Below are positions 1,706 to 25,757 of a DNA stretch of 64,000 nt, one piece after another. The stretch is from Hypholoma sublateritium FD-334 SS-4 (taxonomy: Eukaryota; Basidiomycota; Agaricomycetes; Agaricales; Strophariaceae). Position 1 is the first letter of the stretch, and every line of letters starts with the position of its first letter. The notes beneath the pieces were generated by a model, which saw only the letters and a list, made by a program, of their open reading frames with translations, searched no databases and had not been told where the DNA came from. The stretch covers positions 2,262 to 66,261 of the forward strand of contig KN817524.1 of the NCBI GenBank assembly GCA_000827495.1. The letters run 5' to 3'. A program made the translations under genes and the position numbers.

Positions 1706-1715
1706 TAGTGAAGAC

Positions 1716-2121
1716 TATTGGACGTTAGGCATTCCTCGCGCTTGGCGCCCGTCCATTTTTAGATGCTTACCATTACAAATAATGTACACTGCGGGGCGCG
1801 CGTCTATAGGTCGCACGCACCTCATGGACACATTTCTTTTGTCCCAATTCTTATCTGTTTCCATTCCCTCTTAGTCACATGTAGATACCCCGAGTATGTG
1901 TCGTAGACGCATCGTTTCCTTATAGTCAGAATCCCCCCCAAAATAACTCCCTCAGTTGATCCTACTTGATCTCTGAGGTGAGTTCCCCATTTCCGTAGTC
2001 CCTTCGTACATATGCTGATTGTGCGTAGCACATCTATTTGTACCCGTTTCTATAGGTGACTATGAATATACAGTTGATCCTACTTGATCTCTGAGCACAT
2101 CTATTTGTACCTGTTTCTATA
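1716..2121 (+). repeat. Copia-1 5' LTR
   Basis: The LTR starts TATTGGAC and ends TTTCTATA; the 3' LTR has the same length. It lies between the AAGAC duplication and the tRNA primer site. Its last 170 bp hold the A / intron 1 / B / intron 2 module described separately. The paired LTR differs only by transitions, mostly at CpG-type sites. Confidence 0.93.
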
Positions 2122-2122
2122 G
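1951..2122 (+). promoter_or_regulatory. Split-R leader module of Copia-1 LTR
   Basis: Seen directly: CTCAG (1951-1955); segment A1 (1956-1977); a GTGAGT...GCGTAG intron-like block with a CTGAT branch-like site (1978-2028, 51 nt); segment B1 (2029-2055); then a GT...AG block (2056-2122, 67 nt). That second block consists of an 18-nt linker, a second copy of A (2074-2095, 22/22 identical) and a second copy of B (2096-2122, one mismatch). A and B are fused exactly at the intron-1 boundaries. The same layout, with different sequence, is present in Copia-2 and in the relic LTR. Inference: transcription starts at the initiator-like TCAGT, and splicing makes A-B the 5' R repeat. Confidence 0.8.
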
Positions 2123-2134
2123 GTTATGGGCCCC
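2122..2134 (+). other. Primer-binding site, initiator Met tRNA anticodon arm
   Basis: GGTTATGGGCCCC directly follows the 5' LTR. Its complement GGGGCCCATAACC fits the anticodon stem-loop of eukaryotic initiator tRNA-Met (CAT anticodon followed by AACC), not the acceptor 3' end. Drosophila copia is known to prime from a 5' half of this tRNA. The identical 13-mer follows the LTRs of Copia-2 and of the relic LTR. Confidence 0.85.
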
Positions 2135-2229
2135 GCACTCAGAGTTTAAAATCACTCAGGAATTACCTCACTTGAAATACCTCATATCTTGCTTCGCAAA
2201 CCCTTCCAAATCTTTATCACTAGTCTCAC

Positions 2230-5200
2230 ATGTCTACACAAAAACTTGGCGACGAGTTTCTGCGGATTCCCAAGCTTGACACTATGGGATCAAACTGGGT
2301 TGTTTATCACGACCGTCTCTTAATCTCCATAGACGCTCAAGGGCTAGGAGATCACCTCAATGGCACTGCAAAAATGCCTGTTCATCCTCACCCGCTGCCA
2401 ACAGATGGATCTTCGCAGATGCTCTCAACCAAGCAGAAGGCTAGCGTGGAGGAATATCGGAAGGAGCTGAAAATGTGGAGACAAGAGGAGGCGATCATCA
2501 AACAGCAACTTGCTAGTACGATCTCAGACACTCTATTCTTGAAGATTTGGCTGTTGCCTACAGTTCACGAAATCTGGAGTGCACTCGAGGACACCTACCA
2601 GGTGAAATCTTGCATGGTTTCCATAGACCTTCGACGCCGTTTACAGGAAGAACGGTGCCCGGAGAGAGGAGATTTACGAGCACATTTTGCGAAATTGTGC
2701 CTCATGCGTGAAGAACTCACGTCAATGGGACATCCTCCCGACGACATGGAATTTTACGCCATTGTCATGGGTTCACTTCCGCCATCCTACGACCACTTTG
2801 TGTCAGTCATAGACGCTACCTTCCGCACCACCGTCGCTACTCACCTCGCCATCTCGATCTCCACTGGATCGACCAATTATATTCCTCCTGCTCCATCATC
2901 CAACAATCTTATCCAAAGTCTCATGGAAGAGTACGAGCGCCGCCTTTTACGCAATAAGGCAGGCAAGAAAGACACCAAAAATGTTGCTTTCTATTCCAAT
3001 GACTCCTCAAAAGGGACCAAAGGAAGCTCGTACTCAAAATTGGATGTGGAATGCTTCAATTGTCATAAAATGGGGCATTACAAATCTGATTGCTGGGCGA
3101 AGGGAGGACCAAAGGAGGGCCAGCGCCCCAAGCGAGGCAACCGCGACGCAAAGGGGAAGGGAAAAGGCAAGGACAAGGATGATAAGCCCAATGACAAGGG
3201 CAAGGGGAAAGATAAAGAAAAGGATGCTGCGAACAACGCATCCGATGATTTACCTCTTGAAGCGTGGATGACGCTTTACGTTGATGATTTCATTGACCTT
3301 CCCAAAACCCCACCTGCGCCGCGCGCACCATCTGTTGCTTTCCACGCAGCAATCGGTACTCTTGCGCAGCTTCATGCCGAAGAATACACAAGTGCAAGTG
3401 CCTGGCTCTCCAATAATGATGAAGGCCAGAGTGACGATGATGATGATATGCCTAGTCTTCAAAGCATCAGTGACTCCGAGGACGACAACGAGGATGACAA
3501 GGAAATTTTGCCTCACATCGCGCCTGTGTTTGACATACCGGCATACAATCCACTTCCTCCTGATGACAGTGACGACGACGAGGACATGCCTGGCCTCCAA
3601 GACGTCTCTGATTCGGAATCTGAAAGTGATCTCGAATATGTGGATGATCCACTCAATTTTTCGGATGAAGAATTGGTCTTTGACGAAGCCGATTTCTTCG
3701 AGAACATGTCATCCAACGATGATGACATTTACCTCGGCCAATCGGAAGTTATCCCGGTCGACAACAAGGCATATGCAACTACGTACACGGTTGAGGAGCT
3801 ATCCACCCCGTCCGTTGACGCCGACATCGACCTCTACGATTCAGGCGCCATGCGCCACATGTCAGGCGCAAAGCACCAATTCATTAATTTCATTGAGATC
3901 ACACCCAGGCCAATTTCTGCGGCCGATAATCGTTCATTCAACGCGACGGGCAAAGGAGATGTTCTTGTCCACATACCTAACAGCAATGAAGGTGTATCTG
4001 AAGTCCTTCTCAAGGACGTGTTGTTCGCGCCACAAATGACCGTAACACTCGTCTCTATCAGCCGTATTGTGGAGACCGGCTGTTCCCTGTTATTTGCCGG
4101 CACGACCTGCAGAATATTTAACAAGGAACATGTGTGTATCGGAAAGATTCCTGTGAAGGGGGGACTTTACCGTGTATACGCAAAGCGCCGTCTAGCCGAG
4201 AGCTTCGCCGGAGGCGCCAGGGTCTCAATGACCATCAACGAGCTGCACCGCTGCCTTGGCCACGTCTCGCACACGTGTGCCAAATATCTAGTGGATAAGG
4301 GGCTTATTCTAGGGATCGAGCTCAACCCAGATAGCCACCCTACCGTTTGCGAGTCCTGCGAATGGGCTAAGGGACAACGCAAGGCCATCCGTAAAGAGAG
4401 GGCCACGGAGTGCGCCGCCGCTGTTGGTGATGAAATGCACTCGGATCTTTGGGGGCCATCGCCTGTGGAGAGCATCAACCGGAAGCGTTATTATATCAGC
4501 TTCACGGATGACCACAGCCGATTCACTCATGTATATTTCCTGTCGTCCAAGGATCAGGCGTTCCGGGCATACATTGAAGTGGAGGCGTGGTATCTCACGC
4601 AGTTGGGTATTCAACTCAAATGCCTTCACACAGATCGCGGCGGTGAATATCTAAGCGCCAAGTTCTCTGATCATTCAAAGCTCATGGGAACAATCCGCAA
4701 GCTCACCATCCACGACACGCCCGAATACAATGGCGTCGCCGAGCGCCTCAATCGCACGATCCTCGCCAAAGTCCGCGCCATGCTGCATGACAGCAAACAG
4801 CCTAATTTCCTGTGGGCAGAAGCCGCACGTCACGCCGTATACCTAAAGAACCGCACTTGGACACGCACCCTCGGCGAGACTATGCCGTACGAACTACTTC
4901 ACAGCAAGAAGCCTGATCTCGCGGGTATTCATCCGTGGGGGTGTCGAGTGCGCATGCACAACAGCAGTGGGAACAAGCTGCAAGGGTGTTCCAAAATTGG
5001 CGTGTGGGTGAGATTCGACGAGGAGAGTAATGCTCACTGCATTTACTGGCCGGAAAAGCGCAGCATCACGGTCAAGCGCAGCGTCAAGTTCAATGTCAAC
5101 GATGAGATCATTGTGAACGCAACGCCGCTCGAGGGGGAGATTAGCACCGACGTCGACCCTGACTCGGCTGTCAACCCAAAAATAGCAAATCGCTCACCTA

Positions 5201-5917
5201 TTTCGAGACGTGCCACCATTGAGGACGCCGCGGATGACGAAGATAATGCATCCGAGTCCCCAAATCCCACAGACCACGCCAAAAATATCTTTCGCGAGAA
5301 TGAGCCCATCGCAGAGCCCGCGCCTTTCGAACCACGCCGCGGATCGCGCATCCGCCATGAGTCCGAGTACGTGCGCAGGCTGCGCGACGGTACTGGACTG
5401 TCCAGTGCGCGCCCATCTGACCCTCGGATCCCAACCGGTATTCAGGAAAGCGCAGATGCAGGGGGAGCGGCCGATGCAGTGAGCGATGCGGAAGAGGACG
5501 AGTGGGAGATGGTGGAGGTTGCAGAGCACGCGATGTTGGCAATGATGGCTGGGGCGGAAGGGCTGACCCCAACTTTTGAGGAAGCACGGAAGAGATCGGA
5601 CTGGCCGAAATGGGAAGAGGCGATCAACAGAGCTTGTGTCGTTGAAGGCAAACAACATGTACGAAATCGTTGAACGCCCGCCGAACGTAAATGTCGTCAA
5701 GTGTCGCTGGGTTCTGCGCATCAAAAAGAACTCCGCGGGCGAGATCGACAAGTACAAGGCCCGTCTTGTGGCAAAAGGATTCACGCAAATTCACGGCGTG
5801 GATTATTATGAGACGTACTCACCCATAGCGACGCTCACTTCCTTCTGACTTCTCCTCGCACTTGCCGCGCGCAACGATTGGGAAGCCGATATTTTTGACT
5901 TCGATACCGCATACCTC
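2230..5917 (+). pseudogene. Copia-1 Gag-protease-integrase-RT (5' part), broken
   Basis: A long ORF runs 2230-5673 (1147 codons), then continues in another frame to the hAT insertion. Gag has a CX2CX4HX4C zinc knuckle (near residue 275), followed by lysine-rich and acidic linkers. The aspartic protease motif DSGA is near residue 536. The integrase has an HHCC finger and a D-D-E core (HSDLWGP, HTDRGGEY, NGVAERLN). RT begins after 5640 ([21 protein letters not shown]). A 2-nt loss near 5630 shifts the frame, and TGA at 5846-5848 replaces what is usually an Arg codon, as expected from CGA to TGA. The RT is cut at 5917 by the hAT element. Confidence 0.9.
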
Positions 5918-6121
5918 TAAGGAATGCCATGGGTCAGCCATACCCACGTGGGTCATGGGTATGGGTGCGGGTCATATCTCAGATACCCATGACCCGGGGA
6001 TACCCGTACACAAACATATTACATAATTCTCATAAATTACTTGTTTGCACCAAGTTTGCGCGCAGTTTTTTTTGAGTCAACACAACCTCTACGCTACACT
6101 TGCACCACACTGCACTATCTC

Positions 6122-9100
6122 ATGGCAAACCAGGACAATTCTGACTCTGATACTGTGGCTGGAAATCCCACACGCTCAGGGAGAGTACCAACTGCAAAGT
6201 CTAAAGTGGCCGGAGCTATCCGTAGTCTTTTGCCGAAAAAGACACGTAAAAATGTTGTCCCATCCCCGTCACCCAGTGAAGAATCACTAGACAGCGTGAG
6301 CTCTCATCTAGTAATATCATGAGCGAATTGACCAATTGTTAATACCTCAAGGTCCCACCAATGAAAAAACAGAAAACAAGCCTGATATCAAAACTTACCG
6401 CAAAGGGAAACACGAAAAAGCAAACGAAGGCAGTAGATGTGAGATATTTTAAGATAACCGAACACGTAACTCACCTGATAGCCCACAGAACACCGAAAAA
6501 GAAGCAGTGTCCAAGAAACGTGGACCTCCTTCTCAACAGCCATCAGTCATTGAGATTGATGATGATGATGATGATGACGATAGTGAGGATGACAGTGATA
6601 TTAGGGAGGTTGAAGCACCTGAGAAAGAAAGCCCTGAAGCAGTGCGCAGTATGTCACTCTACTTCAATGATACTGTACAAATCTGATTGAATCTATACCT
6701 AGCGCGCATGATGGAGACGTGGAACACACCTATCTACTCTTTCTGGCACCCAACTCCATCAATCGGTTATGAGAAGAATTGCTGCTATCATGAGTTCAGT
6801 TGCTTCAAAAAGTCATGCAAGGTAAAGTTCGCCGTTACCTAGATACCAAAGATGCTGTGTCAACAGGAAACATGCATTGTCACACCAAGAAATGCTGGGG
6901 TGAGGATGTAGTGAAGCTTGCAATGAGCATGGGCAACATTGACGCAGCAAGGGAGGCATTGGCTAAGTCACCAGATGGATCAATCGCTGAGGCATTTCTG
7001 GTGAAAGGGCTGAATAAACTTACCTTCTCGCACCGTCAGCATATGAAAATGGAGACACAGTTTATACTTCTCCTTCTACTCTCTATTATTAAGCTCACTA
7101 GTAGTGTTGCAGGGCGGAGATTGTACGATGGGTCACAGAAAGTTCACGCCCCTATAAAATTGTTGAGGACCGAGGGTTCAAGACATTGATGAAGACAGGA
7201 CAACCTGAGTATGCCTTACCATCTCCAGCGACTGTATCGCATGATGTTCGTACCATCTTTGCCCGATCACGTCAATGTATCGCATCTATGCTTCAAGTAA
7301 GCCACCATTTATTAATTGAAAATCCACAAAGTATACTCACCTGCTACTGGAGAAACATAAAGGCAAACTCCATTTTGCGACGGACGCATGGACCTCTCCA
7401 AATCACCAGGCCTTTGTTGCGGTAACAGTACATTTCGAGCACAAGGGCGAGCCCATTTGCCTTCTTCTAGATGTCGTTGAAGTCGCTAAGGTAAGTGTCA
7501 ATATATTGAATGATAACCACACCATAACTTACTGGTACACATAGTCTCATAGTGGGGCAAATCTTGCTGAGGCGTTTGCAGGTATTCTGAAGGAGTTCGG
7601 CATTGATCACAAGGCACGTCATTATAATGAGATTATTTCAATAACTTACCTGTCATTAGGTTCTGAGCATCACTGCTGACAATGCTTCGAACAATGATGT
7701 CATGATCTCAGAGCTTGAGTACCTTCTGCCCGAGTTCTCCTCGCTCAACCACGTACGCTGCTTTTTGCATGTCATTAACCTGGTTGCTCGAACATTAGTG
7801 AAACAATTTGACGCACCAAAGAAGACCGTGGTAGCAGCCAACCCAGACGATGAGGCACTGATTGAATTGGCGGGGGATATGGAGTTTGAGGATCATACCA
7901 CGCGTGAGCGTCTACTTGAAGAGTCGGGGAATGAGTGTGCTGAGGATGAGGATGATGTGGATGGATGGGTTGACGAGATGGCAGCTCTTTCACAGGCGGA
8001 GCGTGATGTTTTGGCTGAGAGCACTCATCCTGTCAAAATGGTACTGGTCAAGGTGAGTAGCATGAATGTAGGAGAGAAATCATCACTTACCCTATTGGTT
8101 GGAGATCCGCAAACTCGCCTTCAAAGTTATCAACTCATCGACATTACTTCTCCCCTCCTGGCAGTCATACGTGGCCCAGGAATTGCTAAGTGACCGTGTT
8201 ATTCCACGCGACGTTACAACAAGGTGGAACTCAACTTATGACATGCTTACTTTTGTCCTTGAGTACCGTCCTGTAATCCAGAAATTCACGGCAGACCAAG
8301 AGAACGACATCCGGGAGCTGGAGTTGAGCAAAGAGGAATGGAAGATCGTCAAACAGTTGAACGAAGTACTGATGGTAGGTGGCTGTACGTCCCGTGGAAT
8401 TATTAGTCAGCATACTGATATTCGTCCTACAGGCCCTTAAACACGCAACACAATTCTTCTCTAGAGCCATGCCGCACCTTGCCAATGTGATTCCGGTCAT
8501 GGATATTGTCAGCGACCGGCTCACTGCTCAGGCTAATAATACCAGACTTTCACCATCCATCCGAGTGGCACTAGGTCTTGCAAAGAAGACCCTCAACCAC
8601 TATTACTCAAAAACCGATGATTGTGAAGCGTATCGGATTGCCATGGGTGAGTACTGTAATTTGTCTGTAATATTTCTATCTTCTAATATACAGACAATCA
8701 ATAGTTTTACACCCTCAATATAAATTATCTTACTTCAGAACAGTTCATTGGGAGCAAGAATGGATTAATGTCGCTGAACAGCTTGTACGCACATGTTATG
8801 AAGCTGAGTATAAACCTGCCGTGCCACCAGTTGCCCCCACTCCATCAACGGTATGTTTTTAGAAGATATACAAGATCATAGTTTCTAATGAATACGCCCA
8901 GGTTGCGGGAAAAACATCCAAGAAGGTTGTCAACATGTTTGACACCATGTTCGGCGCATCAGCCACCAACTCGCACACTGACATGCACCACGAACTTGAT
9001 CAATACCTGGCCAATGATACAGAAGTGGTTTCCGACGTCCTCGGGTGGTGGTGGGAGCGCAAGTCAATGTACCCAGGTCTTTCTCGCATGGCTCTAGATT

Positions 9101-9403
9101 ATTTGAGCATTCCCGGTTTGTTGTCTATCTATTATTTGATACAAGTCTTACCGTTCTTACCATTCATTTTTTCAAGCTACTTCTGTCGATGTTGAGCGCA
9201 CATTTAGCAGAGGTCGGCTCATTCTTCCTTACGTGCGTAATCGCCTGTCCGCGCAGTCCACACGCGCTCAGTTGTGTGTTGGGAACTGGAGTTTACATGG
9301 CTATATTCATGACTCTGATGTACTGGCTGCATCTGCACTTCCGGATGTGCTGGGAGATGACGACGTTGAATTTCCTGAGGGCTGGGATAAGATTCTTTTG
9401 TAG
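6122..9403 (+). pseudogene. hAT transposase, multi-exon, one apparent frameshift
   Basis: The protein has a BED-type zinc finger (C..C..H near 6770-6815, completed by CHTKKCW near 6880), an RNase H-like catalytic region (FATDAWTSPNH near 7375; ITADNASNND near 7675), a helical insertion (CFLHVINLVA), and a C-terminal hATC dimerisation domain (GWWWERKSMYPGLSRMALDYLSIP near 9045, then SVDVERTFSRGR after the last intron). Introns are small, for example 6650-6701, one spanning about 7053-7112 and about 8054-8098. The frame slips by one base at about 6818-6822, inside the BED finger, so this copy may be inactive or the site may be an assembly error. The rest reads cleanly to TAG at 9401-9403. Confidence 0.85.
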
Positions 9404-9878
9404 TCTCAAATTCAAATGATATTCTTTTCGATTCTTTTCTATATACCATATACATGGACTATCAATGAAACGAGCAACCAGCTCGTGGGTGCGCTCTGGT
9501 GGTCAGTGAGGGTCTCCGGTGGGTACGGCGGCGGTATCACGTCCTCGAGGGTGGGGCGAAAGCAGTCGGCGCCCACGGGAGCATCAAATCTCCCGCAGGC
9601 GCCATGATGGCATTTTCGAATGCCGAGGCGGAGAGCCAACGAACGACAAGGAATGGCGCCTCCGCAAGCACTGAAGCTCGTAGAGGCGCCTTGGCCAGGT
9701 GATGGGCATTCGCAGGGTGAGCCAGGCATCGCGGCGACGTTGGGAGATGAGGCGGCGAAAGTGCCGGTGCGATGATCGCGCATGCACTACGGCGGCGGTT
9801 TTGCATCGTTGAGGCGAGGCTGGGGTGGTGCAGAAGATGGCTGGGGGTGCGTGGGCGGCGTTGGTGAGGGGAGGGCAG

Positions 9879-10103
9879 TGGTGGATTCGCTTGGGGTGGG
9901 TCAGCAGTCAGGTGGGTGATAGAGGAGCCAAGGGCGCACCTTACACAAAACTCGTGCGGGGGTTAAAGGGCGAGACGGACATGGCGGAGAGCTGGTGGAT
10001 TCGCTTGGGGTGGGTCAGCGGTCAGGTGGGTGATAGAGGAGCCAGGGGCGCACCTTACACAAAACTCGCGCGGGGGTTAAAGGGCGAGACGGACGTGGCG
10101 GGA
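9879..10103. repeat. Two-copy tandem repeat, 114-bp period
   Basis: The block beginning TGGTGGATTCGCTTGGGGTG at 9879 is repeated from 9993 with only a few single-base differences. The high similarity indicates a recent duplication inside the hAT element. Confidence 0.9.
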
Positions 10104-10155
10104 TATGCACGTCTCGTGGGGTCGCGGGAGGGCGTCGAGTCCGAGGATGGCGAGC

Positions 10156-10221
10156 GTAGCATAGCAACTGTGACGTGTTTTAGGACATGTCTGTCCTAAA
10201 GCACGTCACAGCTGCTGGCTA
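10156..10221. repeat. Long imperfect palindrome
   Basis: The core arms are CTGTGACGTG..TTAGGACA at 10168-10187 and its near-perfect reverse complement at 10192-10211 (one mismatch), with a 4-nt loop. Weaker pairing extends to GTAGC...GGCTAC on both sides. It could form a hairpin or cruciform. It may mark the fused inverted ends of a small nested element. Confidence 0.85.
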
Positions 10222-11419
10222 CGCAATGATAAGGCGGGCGGGGAGCGAGTGGCGAGCGAGCGAGCGGCGGCGGGCGAGCGGTGTGGTGTAAACAAACGAA
10301 GGTCGTGGGCACTGGCGCGAGTGAGTCGGAGCACGTGCCTTAAATTGAAGCTCCGCTTTAAATGACTTTTTCGCACTTGTCTGCCACATCGTAGTCCACA
10401 TGCCCACCTTGCTCCCACCTACCTCGTCGCTGCCAGCACCCACCACCGAGCGTCACGGGCGCTTGACCGGCCGCCGCGTAGGCGCCATCACCATCGTTGC
10501 CGCAATCCAAGCCCGCCCCGACGCGCCACGTGGCGTCATCCACGATGTCAGCGCCTGCACCGGGCCCGTAGTCGTCCGAAGGCCCGACCGACCCCGCAGG
10601 CACCCTGTCCCCCCCCCCTCTCGAAGCAGCGGACCCCCCGCCTGCTCTCGACTCGCCCCGCTGCCATCTCCGCCGTCATCGTCGCCATCCACGGCTGCCC
10701 CACGCCCCTTCAGCCACGATGTCGGCGTCCGCACAGCCCCGCCCGCTGTGCCAAGTGTCGCCAGCAATCTCGGCGGCTGGGCCCGCTCTCTGGACTCTCT
10801 GGACCCACCAGACGCGAATACCCGCACCTTCGACGTGCTGAACTGCACCGCCGAGGTTTTGGACCTCCGGCCTTTCAAGCTGGTGAATGTTCTCGGTACG
10901 TTCCGTCCGCTTCCCCTCCCACCCTCTACATCACTAACTAAATTTACTCAGTCCTGTTTGCCTACAAATGCCGCCACTGCCTTGCGTTGCCCCCACCCGC
11001 AACACTTGCCACTGCCAATACCACGTCCGGGGCTGTTTGACGTCACGGAACCGGCTGCCGATGCACTGATGTGCCCCAGCACTGCCTTCTGTTCACATCG
11101 AGGCTGCTTATATGGGCTCATGGCCAACGCCACGGTAGACAGATAAATAGATAATTGTAAATGTAAATAGTTAATGAATATATTGCTTTTATATGCTTTT
11201 CCTGATGGCTGGACCTTGGTGTGGGTGCAGTGTAGCTGTATTGATGTCACATGACCTGCGGGGAGTCCACAATATACACAAAATATACACTGACCCACGG
11301 AGACCCGTTGACCCACAATAGGCTGACCCACGGGTCGATGGGTGTGGGTGTCCGTGGGTATGGGTGCGGGTCACCTCAAAAATACCCAGGGGTTACCCAT
11401 GCTATTCCCTACATACCTC

Positions 11420-12625
11420 AACAGCAAACTGGGGGAGCATGAAACGACATACCTTGAGCAGCCCGCCAACTACGAAATGGGCAATTGACGCACGCACGTT
11501 TGGCGCCTTAAAAAGACGCTTTACGGACTGAAGCAGGGTGCGAGGAATTGGTACAACGTGCTCTCTAAAGCGCTTGCTAAATTAGGCTTCGTACATACAG
11601 AGGCGGATCAAGGCATCTTCGTGAAAAGGTCGGGAATGGATTCACTTTTCCTCGCCATCCACGTCGATGACTGCCTCATCACCGGCACCTCCGCGCCCCT
11701 CATCAAGGCTTTCAAGGTCGAGATGAACAAGAAGTACAAGCTGACGGATCTAGGACCTGTCGAGTGGCTTCTGGGCATCAAGGTCACCCGCAATCACGCG
11801 GAGCGAATGATTTCGCTCTCGCAGCATGCGTACATCAACTCTATCATCACCAGGTTCAATTTCAATGACCTGAAGCTGTCCTCTGTCCCCATGAATCCCT
11901 ATGCGACCCTCTCCGAGTCGCAATGCCCCACCAAGTTCGTCGACATCCAGCGGATGAAGCACGTACCGTACCGTGAAGTGGTTGGCTCGCTCAACTACGC
12001 TGCAACGGGAACACACGCCGATATTAAATTCGCAGTGTCCACTGTCGCCCACTTTTGCGAAAATCCGGCCTGGGAGCACTGGGAAGCGGTCAAATTAATT
12101 TTCCGTTACCTTAAGGGCACGCAGAGCCTCGAGCTCGTCTACGGCAGCGAACAGTGCGGTCTCGAGGGATATGTGGACGCTGACGGTGCCTCCCAAGATC
12201 ACCGATGCGCGATTTCTGGCTACGCCTTTCTCATCGAGGGCAGAGCCGTTTCTTGGTACTCGAAGAAGCAAGGTCTTGTTACACTCTCAACTACTGAAGC
12301 CGAATACGTCGCAGCCACGCAAGCCGCAAAGGAAGCTATTTGGCTTCGTCATCTCATTGGGGAGCTTTTCACACCTCTCAACAAGCCCACTACCATTTTC
12401 TCCGACAGTCAGTCGGCCATCGCACTCGCCAAAGATGGACATTATCACGCCCGCACCAAACACATAGACATCTGTTATCATTTTATTTGCTACACTATCG
12501 AGGCCGGCTCTATCAAACTTGTCTATTGCCCTATGGACAAGATGACGGCCGACACCCTCACCAAGGCCCTGCTGAGCATCAAAGCGAAGCACTTTGCCGC
12601 CGCTCTGGGACTGCACTTGGTTTGA
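11420..12625 (+). pseudogene. Copia-1 RT (3' part) and RNase H
   Basis: This continues the RT interrupted at 5917. It shows KTLYGLKQGARNWY, the active-site block HVDDCLITG near 11660, and SLSQHAYI. RNase H follows with D (YVDADGA), E (STTEAEYVA) and D (FSDSQSAIALA), and KHIDICYHF near the end. The long open stretch is 11558-12625, stopping at TGA just before the polypurine tract. A TGA at 11486-11488 lies upstream, in a position where CGA (Arg) would fit the family. Confidence 0.9.
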
Positions 12626-12632
12626 GGGGGAG

Positions 12633-13038
12633 TATTGGACATTAGGCATTCCTCGCGCTTGGCGCCCGTCCGTTTTTAGATGCTTACCATTACAAATAAC
12701 GTACACTGCGGGGCGCACGTCTATAGGTCGCACGCACCTCATGGACACATTTCTTTTGTCCCAATTCTTATCCGTTTCCGTTCCCTCTTAGTCACACATA
12801 GATACCCCGAGTACGCATCGTAGACGCATTGTTTCCTTATAGTCAGAATCCCCCCCAGAATAACTCCCTCAGTTGATCCTACTTGATCTCTGAGGTGAGT
12901 TCCCCATTTCCGTAGTCCCTTCATACATACGCTGATTGTGCGTAGCACATCTATTTGTACCCATTTCTATAGGTGACTATGAATATACAGTTGATCCTAC
13001 TTGATCTCTGAGCACATCTATTTGTACCTGTTTCTATA
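12633..13038 (+). repeat. Copia-1 3' LTR
   Basis: It has the same 406-bp length as the 5' LTR, preceded by the polypurine tract and followed by the AAGAC target duplication. It carries the same module at matching offsets: A1 12873-12894, intron 1 12895-12945, B1 12946-12972, then the linker and fused A-B copy to 13038. Confidence 0.93.
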
Positions 13039-13084
13039 AAGACAAAATAGGTATTGACATAAACAAAGTGAGAACCTTAGTTGC

Positions 13085-14171: not shown

Positions 14172-14500
14172 TATTGAAGTGGTAGATGTTCCGAGAGGGC
14201 ACGACACTGAGAAGTAAAGATAGATATCTCAGTCTCAACGTTATAGACAAACTGAATGTATTGATATAAGTACCTGAGAAGTAAAGATAGATATCTACAG
14301 GTACTGTGAGTAAAGAATATAGTAAACGAGAGTGGTATATAGCTCACCTCAGTCTCGACGTTATAGATGAACTGAGGGAGCGAGAAGAGAGATTTCTCGG
14401 TAGTCTATGGAAGGGAGCGTTATGTAATACTGTCATGTGAGTTGAAGGAATGAGGTAGGTAAACATCCAATAATGTGTCCGTAAATCAGAATAAACAACA
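14172..14500 (-). repeat. Copia-2 3' LTR
   Basis: Read on the minus strand it starts TGTTGTTTATTC and ends CACTTCAATA. It has the same length as the 5' LTR and carries the module at matching offsets: A1 14348-14371, intron 1 14295-14347, B1 14274-14294, intron 2 14207-14273, tail C 14172-14206. Confidence 0.94.
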
Positions 14501-20148: not shown

Positions 20149-20352
20149 TATTGAAGTGGTAGATGTTCCGAGAGGGCACGACACTGAGAAGTAAAGATAG
20201 ATATCTCAGTCTCAACGTTATAGATGAACTGAATGTATTGATATAAGTACCTGAGAAGTAAAGATAGATATCTACAGGTACTGTGAGTAAAGAATATAGT
20301 AAACGAGAGTGGTATATAGCTCACCTCAGTCTCGACGTTATAGATGAACTGA
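20149..20352 (-). promoter_or_regulatory. Split-R leader module of Copia-2 LTR
   Basis: On the minus strand the order is CCCTCAG, A1 (20348-20325, 24 nt), intron 1 GTGAGC...CTGTAG (20324-20272, 53 nt), B1 (20271-20251, 21 nt), a GT...AG block (20250-20184, 67 nt), and tail C (20183-20149). The GT...AG block is a 22-nt linker, then A2 (20228-20205, one mismatch to A1) fused directly to B2 (20204-20184, identical to B1). The sequence is unrelated to the Copia-1 module but the order and boundaries are the same. Confidence 0.8.
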
Positions 20353-21528: not shown

Positions 21529-21929
21529 GGGGCCCATAACCTGTAAGAATCTAGATATGAAGATAATGCTCAGTTGTTTGGGGGACAAATGACTAAATTT
21601 GTAGTAAATACCTAGATATGAAGATAATGCTACAAGACATCATAAGTACACATTATGGCAGAACGTAAAGTAAAGATAGCTCACCTCAGTTGTTTGGGGG
21701 ACAAACGACTGAGGTGCGCAAAATGGTATCGGCGGATTCTAAATACGTGTATGTAAAGAATCCGTGTTTGAGAATCATATGGCACAAATAAGATAAACGA
21801 TTGCACGAGCGCGCAAGGCAAGAATTCCAAATAACAGAGAAATAGAGTCCGTACTGAGAATGCGCTGCCGCACAACGGCGGCCGAACAAATCGGACGTGT
21901 GTTGCACGTTTGCGCGCGTTATTCCAACA
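21529..21929 (-). mobile_element. Relic Copia LTR (third family) with primer site
   Basis: On the minus strand a 388-bp LTR runs from TGTTGGAATAAC (21929) to ATTCTTACA (21542) and is followed by GGTTATGGGCCCC (21541-21529), the same primer site as the other two families. Only a short leader follows it; no Gag-Pol is recognisable toward lower coordinates. It is therefore a truncated element rather than a clean solo LTR. The LTR sequence is unrelated to the other two. Confidence 0.85.
21542..21712 (-). promoter_or_regulatory. Split-R leader module of relic LTR
   Basis: On the minus strand the order is CACCTCAG, A1 (21708-21685, 24 nt), intron 1 GTGAGC...TTGTAG (21684-21630, 55 nt), B1 (21629-21612, 18 nt), a GT...AG block (21611-21551, 61 nt), and tail C (21550-21542). 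The GT...AG block is a 19-nt linker, then A2 (21592-21569, one mismatch) fused to B2 (21568-21551, identical). A1 can fold into a strong hairpin (CTCAGT..GTTTG / CAAAC..ACTGAG). Confidence 0.78.
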
Positions 21930-24288: not shown

Positions 24289-25757
24289 ATGGTTCGCGAA
24301 ACGTGAGCGCTTTTCAAAAGCCATCCCCTTATACATACTAAACTGCCCAGAAAATTCTACGACCTCTTGGAGGTCCCCCCAAATGCGTCAGAATCGGAGC
24401 TCAAGAAAGCTTACCGCAAGAAGTACGCCTCCAATTCCCACTTGGCTCGCAATGCTCATTCCCAGATGTTACTCAACAGAGCTCTTCGATTGCACCCTGA
24501 CAAGGGCGGCGACCCAGAGTTGTTCAAAGAAGTGACGCATGCGTGCGTTATTGCCTTTCAATCTTTGCTTATTTTCGTGCAAACTCATTCATTACCAGTT
24601 ACGAAGTTCTATCGGATCCTGACAAACGGAGCGTGTACGATGCAAGAGGAGAGGCTGGACTATCGGAGCAGGGTGGAATGGGTGGAATGGATCCCCAGGT
24701 GTGTGTCGCTAGTGACGACAGCTGTTCTACCATTCATCCATCTCCAGGATCTATTCAGCCAGCTGTTCGGTGGTGGCGGTGGTGGATTCTTTGGAGGCGG
24801 TGGCGGAGGCCGATCTCAAGGACCGCGCAAGACAAAGGACCTCGTGCATCGTGTCCATGTCACACTCGAGGATCTCTACAAGGGCAAAACGACCAAACTG
24901 GCTCTTACAAGAAACGTTATCTGCACCAAGTGCAAGGGCAAGGGTGGCAAAGATGGCGCCGTGAGGACGTGCAACACTTGCAGTGGTCGCGGTATCAAAG
25001 TCACCTTACGCCAAATGGGACCCATGATTCAGCAAATCCAGTCCCCTTGCGACGAATGCTCAGGAACTGGCGAAATCATCAACATGAAAGACCGTTGTAC
25101 CGGCTGCAAAGGCAAGAAGGTCCTCCCTGAAAAGAAGTTCCTCGAGGTCCACATCGATAAGGGCATGAAGGGGGGTCAAACAATTCAATTCAGAGGCGAG
25201 AGTGATCAATCGCCAACCGCCGACCCAGGGGATGTTGTGATTGTGATTGAAGAGAAGGCGCATGAACGATTCCGCCGCCAGGAAAACGACCTGATCATTG
25301 AAGTTGAAGTCGATCTACTTACCGCTCTCGCAGGAGGACAGATCGCTATCAAGCATCTGGATGACCGCGCCCTCATCGTGAAAATCGAGCCCGGCGAAGC
25401 CAAGCACGGTCAGTACTCCACGGCGCTTTTTAATTTGTTTTCAACTCAAACGTGTGCATCGCAACAGGTGAACTCAAGGTTATACATGGCCAGGGAATGC
25501 CCTCACAGCGACACCATGAACCCGGCGACCTTTATGTCAAAGTCGGTGTCAAGTTCCCCGATACAATCGATGCTGCGGCTATCCCTCTGCTAGAACGCGC
25601 TCTTCCACCTCGCCCGCCTCTCGAGAAATTCGACAAGAATGTTATCCTCGAGGAAGTTTCTCTGGACGAAACGGACACGCGGCAGCGGGGTGGCATGCAC
25701 GATGATCCCATGGACGAAGATCAGGAAGAGCCTCGTGTGCAATGCGCGAACCAATAG
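24289..25757 (+). CDS. YDJ1: Type I DnaJ (Hsp40) co-chaperone, Ydj1/Mas5-like
   Basis: It stimulates Hsp70 ATPase and delivers unfolded clients. Exon 1 is only 14 nt (24289-24302). The J domain has the HPD motif (LRLHPDKGGD) and YEVLSDPDKR; a Gly-rich linker follows (SQLFGGGGGGFFGGGGGG). The zinc-binding region has four repeats (CTKCKGKG, CNTCSGRG, CDECSGTG, CTGCKGKK), followed by the C-terminal client domains. The protein ends VQCANQ, so CANQ is a CaaX box, matching the farnesylated tail of yeast Ydj1 (CASQ). Last intron is about 25410-25468. The start codon is 149 bp from the omega-amidase stop, same strand. Confidence 0.93.

Follow-up and report, generated by a model that had tools for sequence, protein, structure and literature searches.

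Introns are expected to be erased by reverse transcription. Penelope-like elements keep introns through retrotransposition and share the persistence of introns in a retroelement with the elements described here; to our knowledge, neither LTR strand transfer nor a spliced duplicate is involved in them. Introns are reportedly also gained by tandem duplication of AGGT segments, the duplicated segment providing both splice sites. Such introns resemble those of the single-intron relatives found in this study, but they are gene introns and are not renewed by reverse transcription. We know of no foamy virus LTR with introns wholly inside it or with a stored, pre-spliced leader.

In foamy viruses, the major splice donor is located in R and U1 is blocked by the RNA structure of the 3' LTR; the change of the fold at the 3' end is due to 13 extra nucleotides upstream of +1, while U1 at the 5' donor suppresses polyadenylation (PMC3694450). 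The likeness to the present elements lies in a donor in R at both RNA ends and in nucleotides upstream of +1, present at the 3' end only, which in the present elements would refold the donor. The foamy virus switch, however, acts on polyadenylation and the genomic RNA is unspliced, and the two are not related families. In the elements described here, whole introns appear to lie in the LTR and the transfer homology would exist only after splicing. A described Copia element with LTR introns or a spliced leader copy was not found in open-access full text (subscription papers were outside the scope).

A stretch of 64,000 nucleotides from Hypholoma sublateritium (the window) and the genome it belongs to were analysed. 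Probably, the LTRs of a large group of Copia elements in this fungus contain two spliceosomal introns in the leader together with a pre-spliced copy of that leader, strand transfer rebuilds the introns, and a hairpin tells the two RNA ends apart. New in this analysis is an inverted repeat that covaries across families, with one arm at the end of U3 and the other at the intron-1 donor.

Copia elements of the window

The features of the elements E1, E2 and E3 are listed in Table 1. By pol, LTRs, target-site duplication (TSD) and primer, E1-type elements are Ty1/copia (Pseudoviridae), with which they share the order gag-PR-INT-RT, a Copia gag with RVT_2, 5-bp TSDs and a primer-binding site (PBS) for the anticodon arm of the initiator tRNA. 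In E1 and E2 the domain order is Retrotran_gag_2, gag_pre-integrs, rve and RVT_2, with integrase before reverse transcriptase; the gag and integrase frame of E1 comprises the Pfam domains Retrotran_gag_2, Pol_BBD, gag_pre-integrs, rve and SH3_retrovirus. The tRNA-Met(cat) identity of the PBS source is based on an ARAGORN run on one locus (L012).

Table 1. Coordinates of the Copia elements in the window; exons, introns and start sites are predicted
Feature	Position	Strand	Remarks
TSD AAGAC of E1	left 1711..1715, right 13039-13043	+	flanks LTR pair
5' LTR of E1 (Copia), TAT...ATA	1716..2121	+	
Upstream arm AACTCCCTCAG, end of U3	1945..1955	+	complementary to intron-1 donor, one bulge; family F2
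Exon A1	1954..1977	+	left edge of A1/A2 homology; likely start at A of TCAG, 1954
Downstream arm CTGAGGTGAGTT, the intron-1 5' splice site	1973..1984	+	
Intron 1, GTGAGT...CTGAT...CGTAG, 51 nt	1978..2028	+	
Exon B1, 27 nt, ends TAG/GT	2029..2055	+	
Intron 2, GTGACT...TATAG, 67 nt	2056..2122	+	x + A2 + B2
Spacer x of intron 2	2056-2071	+	
A2	2072..2095	+	identical to A1
B2	2096..2122	+	single mismatch with B1; follows A2 with no intron between
PBS GGTTATGGGCCCCG	2122..2135	+	complementary to the tRNA-Met(cat) anticodon arm of this genome
Copia gag and integrase frame of E1, stop to stop	2224..5673	+	first Met 2230
Reverse transcriptase (RVT_2) frame of E1	11489..12625	+	beyond nested insertion
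3' LTR of E1	12633..13038	+	layout as in 5' LTR; intron 1 12895-12945, B1 from 12946, B2 from 13013
E2 3' LTR	14207..14373	-	A1 14373-14348, intron 1 14347-14295, B1 14294-14274, intron 2 14273-14207
E2 5' LTR, leader	20149..20350	-	A1 20350-20325, intron 1 20324-20272, B1 20271-20251
E2 5' LTR, rest		-	intron 2 20250-20184, y 20183-20149, PBS 20148-20137
E3 5' LTR, leader	21542..21710	-	A1 21710-21685, intron 1 21684-21630, B1 21629-21612
E3 5' LTR, rest		-	intron 2 21611-21551, y 21550-21542, PBS 21541-21530

The split layout of the original prediction, i.e. A1, intron 1, B1 and an intron 2 holding A2-B2 in front of the primer site, was found exactly in both LTRs of E1, which are 95.8% identical in the pair alignment; the primer site is that of initiator tRNA-Met. 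The claimed identity of A2 to A1, the single mismatch in B2 and the joining of A to B at the intron-1 splice boundaries were likewise borne out. For A1, the duplicate stands but the predicted length of 22 nt does not, as the homology, with the A of TCAG as its first base, covers 24-25 nt. The last G of intron 2 in E1 is the first base of the PBS, while the LTR proper ends at 2121.

E2 and E3, both Copia elements on the minus strand, share this layout; their A and B segments are unrelated in sequence. When the two strands of the window were scanned for split duplicates without requiring splice sites, seven places were obtained: five Copia LTRs, all of them with GT..AG, and two ordinary simple or tandem repeats. 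None was found in three shuffles of the whole window.

The reverse transcriptase frame of E1 is interrupted by a 5.5-kb insertion (window 5920-11415). Its ends resemble those of hAT elements (GGAATGCCATGGGT / ACCCATGCTATTCC), and ATACCTC forms an 8-bp-like repeat. No Pfam match was obtained for the three frames inside it, and its naming as hAT is a guess. A host gene frame of the DnaJ family (DnaJ, DnaJ_C and DnaJ_CXXCXGXG), broken by short introns, is located at 24307-25593 of the window.

Proposed replication cycle

Transcription would begin in the 5' LTR with the A of TCAG, and introns 1 and 2 would be removed at the 5' end to give the leader A-B-(y)-PBS. Since intron 2 consists of the spacer, A2-B2 and the 3' splice site, its removal would also take the second leader copy of the LTR off the 5' end. 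The 3' LTR would remain unspliced, so that the RNA ends with A1-i1-B1-x-A2-B2. R would then be continuous only in A2-B2 and in the spliced 5' RNA, as the layout implies. The minus-strand strong-stop cDNA, a copy of the spliced A-B, would find a partner over its whole length only in A2-B2. Its extension from there across x, B1, intron 1, A1 and U3 would rebuild the whole intron-bearing LTR, and A2-B2 would be rewritten from A1-B1 in each cycle. The steps of strong-stop synthesis, transfer and LTR regeneration are modelled on standard LTR replication.

If this is true, introns are hereditary through reverse transcription, splicing is tied to strand transfer and a retroelement needs the host spliceosome in each cycle; it would also be a clean case of an RNA knowing which end it is. 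As the second half of the 5' LTR would be an intron, an explanation for the lack of polyadenylation at the 5' end is at hand. LTR annotation by the R/U5 rule would misplace the start sites of these elements.

Recurrence of the layout in the genome

The two-intron layout was detected in at least 13 Copia subfamilies of the one genome searched, with reverse transcriptases 31-81% identical to that of E1. The pattern CCTCAG..CTGAGGT..GTAG, in which the PBS was not used, had 33 matches in the genome compared to two for a reversed-pattern control. Among the 33, 25 comprise the full split duplicate and one is a recombinant (L014); the second copy is decayed in two (L056, L057) and x-A2-B2 is missing in three (L022, L041, L069). 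The remaining two (L054, L060) are chance matches, about the level predicted by the control. A1 of L027 consists partly of N.

The PBS word was found at 39 places, six of which are tRNA genes by sequence (confirmed with ARAGORN for one). Two-intron elements account for 15 of the other 33 (13 from the scan, the recombinant L014 and the interrupted L025), and two are related LTRs with intron 1 but without x-A2-B2 (L022, L041). One-intron forms are present at eight places, two of the GT-AG type (L040 and L033, the latter mostly N and grouped by its last 50 bases) and six of the GC-AG type (L011, L021, L024, L043, L044, L045). No such repeat was seen at eight of the 33 PBS places (L020, L023, L026, L028, L029, L030, L031, L039). 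When splice sites were not required, 13 out of 37 distinct stretches upstream of the PBS word contained a split duplicate. As a search pattern, the layout reads A-GT(45-65)AG-B-GT(8-25)-A-B-(0-40)-GGTTATGGGCCC.

Both LTRs carry the layout in nine elements (C2, E1, E2, C19, C24, C30, C80, C96, C115). Among 13 aligned LTR pairs, no mismatch was found in the two-intron elements C2, C19, C30, C80 and C115 and in the one-intron element C120, and a single one in the two-intron elements C24 and C96. Exact 5-bp TSDs flank C2, C19, C23, C24, C30, C40, C80, C96, C115 and C120, and several layout-bearing elements have open frames of 1400-1940 codons. Identical or nearly identical LTR pairs with the layout indicate that new LTRs arise with the layout intact, and the layout-bearing families are active rather than relics.

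The expectation that young copies carry the duplicate mostly held: seven type I elements, whose LTRs are identical to 99.7% or more, carry it in both LTRs, with C40, C58 and C130 as exceptions. In these three, x-A2-B2 is lost exactly and from one examined LTR each, i.e. the 5' LTR of C40 (L003/L022) and of C130 (L041) and the 3' LTR of C58 (L027/L069), which shows that the layout can be lost. The loss fits either slippage between B1 and B2 or the transfer of an incomplete strong-stop onto B1.

Four further elements (C94, C61, C48, C36) came from a search with the reverse transcriptase, after which their downstream flanks were examined. C94 and C61, picked by reverse transcriptase alone, are of the two-intron type and their copies are perfect; C61 is so without the words CCTCAG and CTGAGG of the search pattern. 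C48, at one point considered an ordinary Copia, was rejected as such, its downstream flank belonging to a two-intron family; the layout was absent from the downstream flank of C36. In a tree of 19 reverse transcriptase fragments, carriers are found in several well-separated lineages, the deep forks being weak, and a single clade unites C36 with C40 (no repeat).

L025 had been taken for an insertion derived from the 5' end of the RNA (A-B-y-PBS without U3). This was rejected with longer upstream sequence: it is a complete LTR with the TSD ATAAG, interrupted where A2 begins by an insertion of 3.6 kb. The layout was not seen among the IMG/VR matches listed, where a GT..AG scan of 126 loci (at least 120 retrieved with CCTCAG..CTGAGGT..GTAG and six with the PBS word; 2.3 Mb over both strands) matched a single tandem-repeat locus only.

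Edges of the duplicate and splice signals

On the left, the homology of the subfamilies compared begins either with the A of TCAG or with as many as three matching bases ahead of this A; in C61 it begins with the A of CCAT. The inner break allows GT..AG in all 13 split duplicates found without requiring splice sites. At the right edge, AG/GT follows B1, and TAG or CAG follows B2. Edges were shifted by up to a few bases, to the nearest AG for the start of A and to the nearest AGGT for the end of B, and such movement of the splice coordinates favours tidy ends.

Intron 1 is 50-59 nt long, a length usual for compact fungal introns, and has GT..AG and a CTNAY near its 3' end in 13 of 13 cases (mean of 5.2 in shuffled sequences). 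With these termini, branch motif and length it has the appearance of a spliceosomal intron. The signals of intron 2 seem weaker. It has AG/GT and TAG or CAG in all 13 cases, the donor edge being partly set by the method, CTNAY was found in only three of 11 subfamilies, the donors mostly lack a G at +5, and the donor is changed in L018 and L057. In the window family and in F5, F6, F7 and F9, B2 touches the PBS. There, the AG of intron 2 is formed by the last LTR base and the first PBS base, and the 3' LTR lacks it unless G is the first base of the target.

In the two-intron subfamilies A ends with GAG (12 of 13) or GGG (one), neither of them a good 3' splice site, and B ends with TAG or CAG in all 13. 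In the one-intron relatives, where A2 has to serve as acceptor, A ends with CAG. The spliced leader A+B contains one ATG in 616 nt compared to 8.7 expected from shuffles, and ATG is present in several introns and spacers.

A tandem duplication of R unrelated to replication, whose AG/GT ends make introns by chance and which regulates expression by removing upstream ATGs or a poly(A) site, is a very improbable source of this arrangement. Intron gain by duplication of AGGT segments is known, and the single-intron relatives L040 and L045 resemble a plain A-x-A duplication; in the two-intron families, though, the second copy is devoid of intron 1, which a tandem duplication would carry along.

Identity and coupled change of the two copies

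Within a copy, A1B1 and A2B2 are 97.7-100% identical (16 representative copies, one per subfamily; L014, L022, L041, L056, L057 and L069, whose second copy is recombinant, missing or decayed, were excluded), while leaders of unrelated subfamilies are only 50-71% alike and those of two related pairs 81-84%. The two segments are the same in 16 of 25 full copies (one with N) and differ in nine. Between related subfamilies, 44 of 55 differences occur in both copies and 11 in one copy only (seven pairs compared, one subfamily used three times); seven of these 11 stem from the old copy C40. The one-intron relatives L040, L078 and L080 show a coupled indel, an inserted base in both A copies. L062 and L072 (C90) are almost the same sequence, intron 1 differing at a single place, but B reads TTTATATCTTTGTTCTCAG twice in the one and CTATTCTATTTGTTCTCAG twice in the other, once per copy.

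Copies that are alike within elements while subfamilies diverge are predicted by re-templating from spliced RNA and support the replication model. The proposal of the original prediction that the spliced 5' leader and A2-B2 serve as transfer homology thereby gains weight from comparison, namely from the spread of the layout, the likeness of the copies and the blind finds C94 and C61. Alternatively, the duplicate might be the fossil of one old addition of a spliced strong-stop, the RNA now replicating unspliced with a long R and splicing serving translation only. Unspliced RNA would pass the LTR on unchanged and tolerate the loss of x-A2-B2 in C40, C58 and C130, and mismatches between the copies, as in E1, E2 and C96, could be inherited. 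Drift between the copies is expected in that case, yet they are alike within elements and share most differences, which makes a fossil unlikely.

Some exchange between copies has occurred. C23 (TSD ATATC) is a natural recombinant between subtypes: in its 5' LTR (L014), B1 is of the CTATTCTATTTGTTCTCAG type and B2 of the TTTATATCTTTGTTCTCAG type, and L014 differs from the other LTR of the insertion, L062, by this B1 patch and one intron-1 base. The mixed subtypes (L014 compared to L062 and L072) indicate that patches move between copies. This would suit an upkeep of the copies by gene conversion or by repeat slippage at A1/A2 and B1/B2, independent of splicing, and slippage at B1/B2 easily yields the loss of x-A2-B2. 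Such upkeep leaves the edge at the start-site A, the GT..AG break, CTNAY and the covariation of arm and donor unexplained and is considered highly unlikely. Under the replication model, the A1B1/A2B2 mismatches of E1, E2 and C96 are the demanding cases. They are common to both LTRs and predate insertion; strict rewriting in each cycle would need them to be fresh errors or the outcome of early strand transfer.

Inverted repeat between U3 and the intron-1 donor

Every family with upstream sequence has an inverted repeat, the left arm of which ends at the predicted start site and the right arm of which is the intron-1 donor. The arms are CCTCAG..CTGAGG in most families, ACCCCA..TGGGGT in C61, GGAGTTCAC..GTGAACTCC in L040 and GAAGTCC..GGACTTC in L045. 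Individual families have extensions of their own; F9 (C96), for instance, shows 14 pairs and a single bulge. For 14 families, the summed duplex energy of each arm with its own donor was -238.8 compared to -165.4 kcal/mol after permutation, and for the 12 two-intron families -195.4 compared to -154.6 kcal/mol; none of 50000 permutations was as good in either case. Pairing beyond the shared core in 11 families gave a joint P of 0.0009, which is driven by F7, F9 and F4, only three of the 11 being singly below 0.05. The upstream arm of C94 fits its own donor poorly.

As the RNA of the 5' LTR is predicted to begin inside the left arm, formation of the stem would be restricted to the 3' LTR. The 5' RNA would thus be unable to pair the end of U3 with the donor, while in the RNA of the 3' LTR the donor would be hidden. 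Predicted openness of the donor is in line with this, albeit modestly (mean of 0.17 in the 3' context compared to 0.26, lower in 17 of 19 rows). The hairpin could therefore hide the donor in the 3' LTR and leave the 5' donor free, and the inverted repeat may supply the reason, absent from the earlier model, for the lack of splicing at the 3' LTR.

Complementarity between the end of intron 1 and donor 2 was seen in F3, F4, F6, F7 and F9, e.g. ATACCTGTAG / CTACAGGTAT in L053; no such pairing was seen in F1, F2 and F5. It could delay the removal of intron 2 until intron 1 is gone. A B1 hairpin is strong in F3, F4, F6 and F7. In a permutation test, P was 0.08 with the last 16 nt of intron 1 and 0.0085 with the whole intron. 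"Domino" splicing by way of a B1 hairpin is an idea at most: the hairpin is not general and is absent from the window family with the last 16 nt of intron 1.

Forms of the layout and one-intron relatives

We lean towards the broader reading in which the two ends of the RNA are spliced differently, homology arises only after splicing at the 5' end and a hairpin at the start site marks the LTR, and in which this applies to most Copia lineages of the genome. Three forms would then exist, one with two introns and two with a single intron, which is GT-AG in L040 and GC-AG in L045. The related Copia group L043, L044, L045 and L081-L086 has A-x-A with a putative GC donor (CAG/GCAAGT). The putative GC-AG intron is about 49-57 nt long, with weaker evidence for splicing than in the two-intron group.

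In L021 (C38), A2 is interrupted about 240 nt upstream of the PBS by a short tRNA-like insertion (GATAGCTCAGTGGTTAGAGC...GGTTCAAACCC). The insertion is flanked by an AGTTACT repeat and is SINE-like.
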